64,000 nt of DNA from an uncultured Sulfolobales archaeon (lineage in GTDB: Archaea > Thermoproteota > Thermoprotei_A > Sulfolobales > Acidilobaceae), in assembly GCA_937921695.1 (NCBI GenBank), contig CAKZTZ010000006.1:1-64000 (forward strand), written 5' to 3'. The position numbers were made by a program, and so were the translations under genes. Positions 13,090 through 52,785 of this stretch are shown one piece after another. The notes under the pieces were generated by a model that made no database searches, was not told the origin of the DNA, and was given only the letters and a program-made list of their open reading frames with translations. Every line of letters begins with the position of its first letter. The first letter of the stretch is position 1.

Positions 13090-14061
13090 CTAGGAGGGCG
13101 GGGATTGCTCAACAACCGCCCTTAAAAGATCTAACACTATAATCTTAGCCCTCTCAAGGTTCTCCGAGCTAACTTTATCAGCAGTATCACTATACCAGTG
13201 GTAATTACCTATCATGCTGTCAATAAAAGCCATTAAACTCACCGCCCTCAAACCAGCCCTCATTAGAGGAGTAGCATCCGTGGGTAACAGTTTATACGTC
13301 ACTGTCCGCACCCCCTTTAACGATGAAAACTCTCTAATGACCCTCCTGAATTCCCCGGGGGAACACCAGGTTAAAATTACCCCCTCACACTCTGTAAACG
13401 CAAGGCTTCCAATGCCCGGGTTATCTATATTAACTATTATGGAGCCCCCCATAATATCACGGCTCTTCCTATAGAAATAGTAAGAGCCTAGGAGGCCCAC
13501 CTCCTCAGCGCCCGTAAACACTATGAGCACCCTAGCTTTACCCTTAACTTCATCAGGGCTTCTAGCTAGGTGCTCGGCAACCCCGAGGAGGACTGCGACC
13601 CCCGAAGCGTTATCATTAGCCCCAGGCACGTAGTTGTGGAATATTTCCCTATGAACTAGTATTAGAGAAGACGCTATTAGAGGGGTTGAGGCTATGATTG
13701 ATGCTATAAAAAAGAAAGAATTACCTAGAAGCGTTCCTGTCAAAGTTAAAAAAGCCACTGCGGCTGACGAGGCGAAATTGAGTTTTATAGTGAGCCTTAA
13801 ACTGCGAACCCTCGCCGGGTTAAAAGAGAAGGCTGCCCTGGTGCTATCATAGTGGGCTATCAGCATTACCGTCCTAGGTCCCCCGCCTATCTCAGCTATT
13901 ATGTTAGCGGTCTTCCTCCTCCATAGGATTCCATAGAGCCTAGTTAGGAGGGGGATGTAGAGCTCCTCTTCTAGTATGAGGAGGGTTATGCCTGCTAGGG
14001 CTAGTAGGGCTCCTAGGGTCTTTAACCCCTTTAGGGCTAGTAGTGGTGATGCTACTAGCAT
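13090..14061 (-). CDS. Membrane-associated M28-family zinc peptidase
   Basis: The coordinates use the first ATG (14061), giving 323 residues, but coding sequence clearly continues upstream to about 14241. The metal ligands of M28 aminopeptidases are present: His 70 (AHYDS), Asp 150 (GANDNASG), the Glu pair 186-187 (TGAEEVGLLGS), Asp 213 (VNIDNPG) and a C-terminal His (NYHWYSDT). Hydrophobic helices occur at residues 1-30 and as a hairpin inserted between the first His and the Asp (about 90-137), so this is a membrane protein. Upstream codons read as the usual M28 N-terminal region (LSQKHRGAGTREEEEARNYI), but lack ATG, GTG or TTG. The gene overlaps or abuts the stop of the gene at 14238. Confidence 0.85.
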   Translation of the reverse strand: MLVASPLLALKGLKTLGALLALAGITLLILEEELYIPLLTRLYGILWRRKTANIIAEIGGGPRTVMLIAHYDSTRAAFSFNPARVRSLRLTIKLNFASSAAVAFLTLTGTLLGNSFFFIASIIASTPLIASSLILVHREIFHNYVPGANDNASGVAVLLGVAEHLARSPDEVKGKARVLIVFTGAEEVGLLGSYYFYRKSRDIMGGSIIVNIDNPGIGSLAFTECEGVILTWCSPGEFRRVIREFSSLKGVRTVTYKLLPTDATPLMRAGLRAVSLMAFIDSMIGNYHWYSDTADKVSSENLERAKIIVLDLLRAVVEQSPPS

Positions 14062-14237
14062 AGTATATATTGTTATGTATGTGTATGAGAATGATGGTGG
14101 GGTGTGGAAGAACTGTAGTGAGGGCTTGTAGCCGTAGTTTTCCAGCTCTCTAATAATATAGTTTCTAGCTTCCTCTTCTTCGCGCGTCCCAGCCCCTCTG
14201 TGTTTTTGTGAGAGTTTCTCTACATGCTTGTATAATC

Positions 14238-15329
14238 TTAAGGCTCCTCCACCTTCACTATTTTAATCCCCATCTTCTCTAGTTCACCCAGGAATTCTTC
14301 AGAGTCTTCTATGGAAGCTTCCGGGGGCTTTATGCCGGGCTCTCTTATCTTACCTCCAGCTATTTTCACAGCCCCTAAGGCCGCCGGGATCCCTGTTAGT
14401 CTTCTCATCCTGTCTATAGTTACATAAGATACTTTACCGTTATCTCCTAGAACTTCTACTTTCAAGGCGCTCACCTTTAAACCCCCCACTCTGAACACTC
14501 CTTCCACCTTATGTATTAGCTTAGCTAGCCTCTCAGCTTTAACGTCACTATTTACGTTTAGAGCTCTCATTAGGAATTTGGCGAACGCGTTCTGCCATGG
14601 TGGAATAAGTCCCCCCCTAACTGTAACCCTATCTTTAACCTTAACATGCCTAGGTAGCGTTACAGGCTCCGGGTGCCCCGTATAGTATAGCTTCAACCTC
14701 CCTATAGGCTCTGGAAACGATACTTCGACCCCGCCGCTGCCGGCGTCAACCAGGGTCCAAGATCCTCCAAGGTACATTGGCACCTTGCCTATAAGAGCGT
14801 GGAAAAGGTGCAGTACAACAGCTAAGCCTTTAGAGTCCGCGGCTGAACCAACCCAATATATGTCTATAGCTTCAACCTCCCCGAATAATTTAGAGCCCTG
14901 CAGAGCTAGAAGGTTAGACAGGCCCGGCGTCCACCCTAATCCCGTTACCCCGGTGACCCCGGCTTTCTCAGCTTCCCCATTCAAACCTAGAATGTTTTCA
15001 ACAGCATCATAGTCGTCGCACACATCTACAAAGTTTAAACCTAAACTTACAAGGTTCCTAGCTACGGGGAACCCTAGCTTATAGAAGGGGCCTATAGTGT
15101 TAACGACAACATCCACATCTTTAGAAGCTTCTCTGAGAGACTCCAAGTCTATAGCGTCAACCTTAACGGCTTCACAGTTGCACCCCAACCTCCTAATATT
15201 CTCGGACACTGCTTTAGCATCTTCATATCTAATGTCCCCCGCCACAATCGTGTCAACATTCATAGAACATAAAGCCTCTAAAACCCCGGACCCTATATCC
15301 CCGGCCCCTCCTAGAACCATGACTTTCAA
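14238..15329 (-). CDS. Saccharopine dehydrogenase-like NAD(P)-dependent oxidoreductase
   Basis: A 363-residue protein from TTG 15329. The N-terminus is a Rossmann fold (KVMVLGGAGDIGSGV) followed by a DVVVNTIGPF strand and a GLGWTPGLSNLLA motif, all typical of the saccharopine dehydrogenase superfamily. The C-terminal part includes a DRMRRLTGIPAALG segment seen in members that are not true lysine enzymes. No lysine-biosynthesis genes are close by, so the substrate is unknown; carboxynorspermidine-type or other amino-acid dehydrogenase activity is possible. Its 3' end overlaps the upstream extension of the M28 peptidase frame and contains the ggaggag that may act as ribosome-binding site for that gene. 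Confidence 0.8.
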   Translation of the reverse strand: MKVMVLGGAGDIGSGVLEALCSMNVDTIVAGDIRYEDAKAVSENIRRLGCNCEAVKVDAIDLESLREASKDVDVVVNTIGPFYKLGFPVARNLVSLGLNFVDVCDDYDAVENILGLNGEAEKAGVTGVTGLGWTPGLSNLLALQGSKLFGEVEAIDIYWVGSAADSKGLAVVLHLFHALIGKVPMYLGGSWTLVDAGSGGVEVSFPEPIGRLKLYYTGHPEPVTLPRHVKVKDRVTVRGGLIPPWQNAFAKFLMRALNVNSDVKAERLAKLIHKVEGVFRVGGLKVSALKVEVLGDNGKVSYVTIDRMRRLTGIPAALGAVKIAGGKIREPGIKPPEASIEDSEEFLGELEKMGIKIVKVEEP

Positions 15330-15393: not shown

Positions 15394-16626
15394 TTATAGA
15401 GGTTTATATCCCGCTCCTCCTATTTTAAGGAAATCTCCGGGCCTCCCCAGCTCTATTTCCAGCCTGGCGCAGTAGCCTCTCGGGGCTGTGACTGTTGTGA
15501 GCCCCCTTACGGGGGGCATTTCAAGCTCTTCCCTCGTAGTTAGGAGTTTAACGTTTTTAACTGGACTATATAGGCGTATTTCCGCTATGCCCTCACTGTT
15601 TGTAGGGTTGATTATAGGCATTACTAGTTTGCCCTCCTCAGCTTTTGAGAGCGCTAGGAACGCCTTGTAGCTCCTCACGTGGCCCACTGGCTTTTCAGGG
15701 GCCGGCCTTATAGTCCAGTTAACACTTCTTTCTAGTAGGAGTTTGAAAGCTTCAAACTCCCCCCCGGTTGAGGCTGAGAGCTCCCCGTTAGCGGATATTT
15801 TAAGAAGTCCTCTCCCAGCCTCAACCCTCAAGCCCCCGGGCGACGCTATAGCTATGGAGCCTCGGGGTCCTCTAACGGATATAGCGTTAGATTCTAGGAT
15901 CTCGCCGTTGCGCACGCTAATATCGTGGAATGCTAGCACTCCCAGGTAGCTTATAGAGTAATCATAGTATATGTGTTTAAACTCTAACTCTACAGGCCCC
16001 CTGCCGAGTAGTGTGAGGGCTCCCTGGGAATATGCTGCTATAAGCTCCCCACTTTGAAACACTGTTAACCCCCCAGAGGAGCCTGAGGATCCTTCGAGCT
16101 CCATAGTGAATGGGCCGAAAACTATCTTAAACAACCCCCTACTCAATGTCAAAGAACTGCAGTTAACAGAGCTTTTAGAGTGGAGGGGTTCAATGTTAGG
16201 GGTGAAAACAGCGTAGCCCCCCACATTATAACATGGGGGTAGCCCCGCACCCCCCTCAACTATTAGAGGGGAGGAGGGCCTCCACCCTAGCGGGTTAAAT
16301 AATCCCTCAACAACCTCCTTATAGTATTCTCCTAGACGCTCTAAGAGAGCCTCGAGGTTCAACCGTTTAACTGTGAAAACCATACCTTTAAGAGGCTCTA
16401 GAGGAGTTGACGCTACGAGGCCCCCTCCATTAACTTTAACCTCGTAAACCCCCATGTGATCCCACGTTAAGCTGGGGGCGCCTGGAATATCAATATTATC
16501 TAAGCCCATATAGTATAACATTATAGGAGCCCCTGGAACCCTCAGCAACTCCAGACTTCCAAGCTTCCCCCTAACAACCTCAACCCAGTCAGGCCCCCAG
16601 TCCTCAAAACAATACACTATTAACAC
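15394..16626 (-). CDS. Conserved-looking protein of unknown function, beta-rich
   Basis: A 410-residue protein with no signal peptide and no clear membrane helix. Strongly beta-prone with many Gly and Ser, including a GSSGSSGG linker near residue 185. The last 80 residues read like a beta-sandwich (MPIINPTNSEGIAEIRLYSP). No catalytic motif is recognised. It could be a cytoplasmic carbohydrate-related protein, but this is only an impression from the fold-like pattern. It stands alone in its orientation, 65 bases beyond the oxidoreductase start, and may be the first gene of that leftward transcript. Confidence 0.65.
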   Translation of the reverse strand: MLIVYCFEDWGPDWVEVVRGKLGSLELLRVPGAPIMLYYMGLDNIDIPGAPSLTWDHMGVYEVKVNGGGLVASTPLEPLKGMVFTVKRLNLEALLERLGEYYKEVVEGLFNPLGWRPSSPLIVEGGAGLPPCYNVGGYAVFTPNIEPLHSKSSVNCSSLTLSRGLFKIVFGPFTMELEGSSGSSGGLTVFQSGELIAAYSQGALTLLGRGPVELEFKHIYYDYSISYLGVLAFHDISVRNGEILESNAISVRGPRGSIAIASPGGLRVEAGRGLLKISANGELSASTGGEFEAFKLLLERSVNWTIRPAPEKPVGHVRSYKAFLALSKAEEGKLVMPIINPTNSEGIAEIRLYSPVKNVKLLTTREELEMPPVRGLTTVTAPRGYCARLEIELGRPGDFLKIGGAGYKPL

Positions 16627-52669: not shown

Positions 52670-52724
52670 GCCCTTCCCATCCTCCCTAGAGATAGTTCCC
52701 GCTTCAACCCTTATAGAAGCTAGT

Positions 52725-52769
52725 GGTGAAACTTTTAGTTATTTAAGACTTGCCGGTGAAACTTTTAGT
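52725..52769. repeat. Two 15-base direct repeats flanking a TATA-like element
   Basis: ggtgaaacttttagt occurs at 52725-52739 and again at 52755-52769, 30 bases apart (about three helical turns). Between them lies ttatttaagac, a TATA-like stretch. The region is shared by the divergent B3/4 and signal peptidase genes, so the repeats could be a regulator's binding sites. Confidence 0.5.
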
Positions 52770-52785
52770 CTAAGGGAGCTCATAG

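Follow-up and report, generated by a model that had tools for sequence, protein, structure and literature searches.

Start-codon choice in archaea is thought to be based on AUG, GUG and UUG, other codons being rejected by aIF1. TTA is a listed start in NCBI table 4, for trypanosomatid mitochondria, organelles without a Shine–Dalgarno (SD) sequence whose machinery is unrelated to that of the gene described here. Our literature search returned no paper on a UUA start codon, and its matches for a TTA start codon were, judging by their titles, eukaryotic. For archaea, the excerpted text of PMC7531240 names AUG, GUG and UUG only, and the aIF1 of S. solfataricus is stated to select against non-canonical start codons (PMC6237735, PMC8211752), which speaks against easy use of UUA. 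UUG accounts for 52% of starts in Aeropyrum pernix (PMC5911459). In S. aureus, infC, cvfC1, ccpN and citZ begin with non-canonical AUU or AUA codons accompanied by an extended SD, and AUA and AUU starts there reach ~10–30% of AUG efficiency (PMC13009471). Overlaps of stop and start codons in the form ATGA or TTGA, with termination-reinitiation, have also been described (PMC10666635).

Here we describe a peptidase gene, from an archaeon of hot-spring type, that is probably translated from UUA, most likely the codon at 14241-14239, in the window (the whole 64,000-nucleotide stretch of DNA that was analysed). Its frame runs on the minus strand, open from 14262, next to an upstream stop TAA at 14265-14263, down to the stop at 13090-13092. 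The features concerned are as follows.

13090..14241, minus strand: gene for a predicted M28-family membrane peptidase, read from TTA 14241 to the stop at 13090-13092, 383 residues (Pfam Peptidase_M28, alignments)
14238..15329, minus strand: co-directional gene upstream of it, resembling saccharopine dehydrogenase (Pfam Sacchrp_dh_NADP)
14240-14238, minus strand: TAA stop of the upstream gene, sharing two bases with TTA1 (TTAA)
14241-14239, minus strand: TTA1, preferred candidate start codon, TTA in three close species and 7-8 nt 3' of AGGTG
14235-14233, minus strand: TTA2, alternative candidate start and the choice of the initial annotation; TTA, CTA and TTA in the window, L002 and L003
14255-14250, minus strand: SD AAGGTG, with core AGGTG at 14254-14250; TTA1 lies 8 nt downstream
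14250-14246, minus strand: GGAGG, a further SD-like match whose register suits TTA2
14061-14059, minus strand: ATG, first standard codon in the M28 frame (residue 61), inside predicted helix 52-70

The product matches the Pfam M28 profile at 81.3 bits against a gathering cut-off of 21.3, and H130, D210, E246/E247, D273 and H348, which we take to be the metal-ligand and catalytic residues of the family, are invariant in all nine aligned homologues; it is therefore predicted to be an M28-family peptidase. Upstream of the gene pair lies a 410-residue ORF (15394-16626, minus strand) with no Pfam or NCBIfam match. Inspection of the whole open frame found no ATG, GTG or TTG in the 60 codons upstream of ATG 14061, as the initial annotation had reported with all coordinates correct; the GGAGGAG at 14250-14244, the TTA at 14235-14233 and the upstream-gene stop ending at 14238 are likewise present as it described. 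The second in-frame TTA, at 14241-14239, was not discussed there, 14241 being the end coordinate given for that finding.

The stretch ahead of ATG 14061 had been read as a typical M28 N-terminus, and comparison with relatives bears this out. All three close species have 28 codons ahead of any standard start, and over these pN is 0.075-0.15 and pS 0.65-0.81, a pattern of substitution that places the N-terminus under strong purifying selection. Nine homologues from archaea and bacteria share R15, G16, T19, E22, A25, I29, L33, G37, Y38 and F45 without exception, all ten lying ahead of residue 61. Judged by these comparisons, the upstream stretch is coding and not a chance open frame. An AlphaFold2 model (mean pLDDT 83.2) is confident for residues 1-60 (means of 75-95 for ten-residue blocks) and places helices at 2-10 and 20-35 and a strand at 41-47 in this region, so the N-terminus is predicted to belong to the fold. 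Translation solely from ATG 14061, with the upstream stretch outside the protein, is what a mechanical ORF list gives, this ATG being the sole standard codon of the first 60 codons. It is nonetheless improbable, given the selection, the ten invariant residues and the modelled helices and strand upstream of it, its position in the middle of the predicted helix 52-70, and the different place of the first standard codon in two orthologues: TTG 1216, at about residue 30, in L003 and GTG 1858, at about residue 115, in L002.

This N-terminus is rare, being matched in 5 of 60 genomes (its own included), in 7 of 214 genomes of the order and in 5 of 398 genomes sampled across the phylum. Relative to the protein of the window genome (G000), identity is 70% in G049/AG1 (locus L002), 69% in G005 (the ZMQR bin; L003), 58% in G003 (L004) and 54% in G057. 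Alignment of orthologues, proposed in the initial annotation as a check on the start position, showed that the two nearest assemblies (69-70% identity) share with the window the absence of ATG, GTG and TTG before the conserved N-terminus. Although AG1 (L002/L008) is placed in a different family within the order, its M28 gene is as close to that of the window as the congener's is, which suggests transfer of the gene. The G057 orthologue (L006:1256-1290, minus strand) is split into two frames at an AT-rich run (TATATAT), the split reflecting either a sequencing error or a real frameshift.

At the position of TTA1, the window, L002 and L003 all have TTA, with AGGTG spacings (d) of 8, 8 and 7 nt, and the stop of the upstream gene lies within 3 nt of it in each. 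This TTA is kept in three of the five close orthologues, the window included; the other two, which count against a UUA start, begin otherwise, G003 having an ATG five codons earlier than the TTA-equivalent region, while in G057, whose frame is broken, a TTG precedes it by four codons. The 16S rRNA tail of the window genome ends GGATCACCTCCT, and the full SD is therefore GGAGGTGAT. Standard starts in this genome most often follow AGGTG by 6-8 nt (79, 68 and 46 in-frame cases), and the M28 spacings fall inside this peak. TTA2, proposed as the start in the initial annotation, aligns with a TTG in L004/G003, while in the more distant relatives L025 and L026 the matching codon is ATG or GTG. TTA1 fits better, since TTA is identical there in the three close species and the SD spacing is 8, 8 and 7 nt, and in our judgement it is clearly the stronger candidate of the two. 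Among the options listed in the initial annotation, a non-standard start is thus the one favoured by the lack of a standard start in three species, the conserved TTA and the SD spacing.

A misread or misassembled start codon, the true codon being TTG or ATG, was another of those options. The genomes are mostly metagenome assemblies, and point errors in start codons would likewise produce near-cognate codons; however, the same TTA occurs in three independent assemblies, one of which (G005) has a contig labelled coverage 292, and an error rate high enough to alter dozens of start codons should disrupt many reading frames, whereas frameshift-type cases make up 10 of 1460 gene ends in the comparison described below. 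We therefore hold a sequencing error to be very unlikely. A programmed frameshift that fuses the saccharopine dehydrogenase-like protein to the peptidase would remove the need for a start codon, and the upstream stop does overlap or nearly adjoin the M28 N-terminus in the window, L002 and L003. Such a fusion is also unlikely, because the frame relation to the upstream gene differs between species: the required shift would be -1 in the window and L002 and +1 in L003. No common slippery sequence was seen at the gene join, ordinary start codons occur at or close to the M28 start position in L004, L025 and L026, and the other start-less genes instead show an SD and near-cognate codons.

Somewhat less remote, though still unlikely, is initiation at a non-canonical codon other than either TTA, or termination-reinitiation without any fixed start codon. 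In its favour, the upstream stop lies no more than 3 nt from TTA1 in each of the three species, and archaeal gene pairs are reported to be coupled by termination-reinitiation (PMC10666635), but no other near-cognate codon at SD spacing is common to the three species, and start-less genes elsewhere carry near-cognate codons positioned by the SD. Coupling to the upstream gene, as raised in the initial annotation, fits as an aid to initiation and not as a substitute for a start codon.

For the preferred UUA start, the strong SD, lying 7-8 nt ahead of the codon, would position the initiation complex, and ribosomes that finish the upstream gene at its overlapping UAA may assist by termination-reinitiation. 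Ordinary Met-tRNAi, with anticodon CAU, would need to tolerate a mismatch at both the first and the third codon position. The arrangement probably arose from a TTGA overlap, with TTG as start and TGA as stop, through a single G-to-A change to TTAA; such a change would alter both codons at once. No special decoding part is seen, because the initiator tRNA is ordinary and aIF1 is present. G000 and the portion of G005 that was retrieved each contain one initiator-type tRNA, with a CAT anticodon, and a special initiator with an altered anticodon or an extra copy was rejected on this ground. Loss of aIF1 was also rejected: SUI1/aIF1 was found in all six genomes of the genus, the G000 and G005 sequences appearing ordinary by eye. 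The simplest account may be that a strong, well-placed SD, aided by the overlapping stop, suffices for Met-tRNAi on a weak codon. Counter to this run the two mismatches of UUA to the CAU anticodon and the presence in the genus of aIF1, the protein reported to reject non-canonical starts in S. solfataricus.

The absence of a standard start extends to other genes. The rebuilt window genome (G000, 1,382,835 bp) and its congener G005 (986,895 bp) yielded 730 reciprocal orthologue pairs (1460 gene ends) in which each member has an upstream stop. An N-terminus aligned upstream of the first standard codon in 20 G000 and 37 G005 genes; 2 and 8 of these, respectively, look like broken frames, leaving 18 and 29 (47). 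In 26 of the 47 (7/18 in G000 and 19/29 in G005), radA and rps9 among them, and in 0 of the 10 broken-frame cases, an SD of five or more bases is followed at 6-8 nt by a non-canonical codon; the 21 of 47 without an SD-anchored codon count against a general trait. The codons of the 26 genes are CTG (6), TTA (4), TTT (3), ACG (2), ATA (2), GGA (2) and seven others once each, some of them (GGA, TAT, AGC, ACT, AGG) being doubtful. At least two other extension genes (nos. 31 and 33) are false extensions, in which SD-like DNA precedes the true ATG.

Several individual genes are instructive. In G005 radA (L169:17449-18405, minus strand), a TTA stands 7 nt after the SD GGAGGTGA and is the only SD-placed start seen, the aligned codon in the congener G000 being ATG. 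G005 rps9 (uS9; L160:17909-18385, minus strand) has no ATG, GTG or TTG over 83 codons and a TTA at SD + 7. Standard starts in the other species of the pair correspond to ATA in L165 (TTG), ATA in L120 (TTG), CTG in L102 (TTG), CTG in the G000 gene C31 (GTG) and ACG in the G000 gene C7 (ATG). Read from such codons, RadA, uS9, RNase HII, DUF488 and RNase P p30 have near-complete Pfam domains. The EMG1/NEP1 gene of G000 (L051:519-1202, plus strand) has GAGGTGA followed at 7 nt by GTT, with no standard start for 38 codons; read from this GTT, its Pfam model match begins at residue 5. An orthologous pair in G005 (L125, minus strand, ORF 17718 in reverse coordinates) and G000 (L084:10644-11060, minus strand) has GGTGA followed by TTT GCT TAT at the same spacing in both and no standard start; its start is possibly UUU. 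An apparent start-less ORF at window position 52738 was dropped, as it sits in a duplicated CTAAAAGTTTCACC stretch; this short duplicated motif occupies 52720-52770 (minus strand), directly ahead of the ORF.

Codon positions were compared in AGGTG-anchored frames without a standard codon for 15 codons, a stricter scan that excludes genes with a nearby standard start and carries the enrichment claim; the initial SD scan, in which such genes were kept, was uninformative (near-cognate codons in 12/111 for G000 at SD run 6, against 0.105 expected). CTG, ATA, ATT, ATC or ACG occurs at d = 6-8 in 11/24 frames and at other offsets in 12/157 (p = 1.1e-5), where this one-mismatch set was itself fixed after looking and omits AAG and AGG; among the 24 frames are both M28 orthologues, and a low-complexity gene enters twice. 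Adding TTA gives 15/24 against 19/157 (p = 2.8e-7), but TTA joined the set after the data had been seen, so that the one-mismatch set is the fairer test. TTA by itself is weakly enriched (4/24 against 7/157, p = 0.042), two of the four being the M28 orthologues. One coding-score scan, applied to all three organisms, picked out 24/1253 genes in G000 and 46/892 in G005, against 0/120 in the E. coli K-12 control (150 kb), a small sample that is not from an archaeon.

We propose that the putative UUA start of the peptidase gene exemplifies a broader feature of the genus, in which, given a well-placed SD, the start need not be AUG, GUG or UUG. Tentatively, and with somewhat less than even confidence, we suggest that start-codon identity is broadly relaxed in the genus: a strong SD 6-8 nt upstream would define the start, and many codons, including the double-mismatch UUA and possibly UUU, would serve as starts for a few percent of genes, of which radA, rps9, rnhB and RNase P p30 would be examples. 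The basis for this is sequence from two genomes of one genus and one AG1 locus, and spread beyond the genus was examined for the M28 gene only. The wider pattern outweighs the single M28 case in importance. If it is real, standard gene callers would shorten or miss all such genes, and annotation in the group may lose N-termini, those of essential proteins included. A lineage whose conserved genes retain UUA, CUG, AUA and ACG behind well-placed SDs would also make the relative weight of SD and codon–anticodon pairing directly testable.

Set beside the described systems, the TTAA of the M28 gene shares the four-nucleotide geometry of ATGA and TTGA overlaps, although its start half, unlike theirs, is a non-standard codon. 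A. pernix is a hyperthermophilic crenarchaeon with relaxed reading of the first start-codon position, as is proposed for the organism studied here; its UUG is, however, a standard start, and UUA, AUA, CUG and ACG starts are not named in the excerpted text of PMC5911459. The S. aureus AUU and AUA sites resemble the M28 start in combining a weak non-standard codon with a strong, well-placed SD that is kept across species. They comprise four sites with single-mismatch codons in a bacterium with IF3, whereas the present case concerns an archaeon with many candidate genes and the double-mismatch codon UUA, perhaps also UUU.
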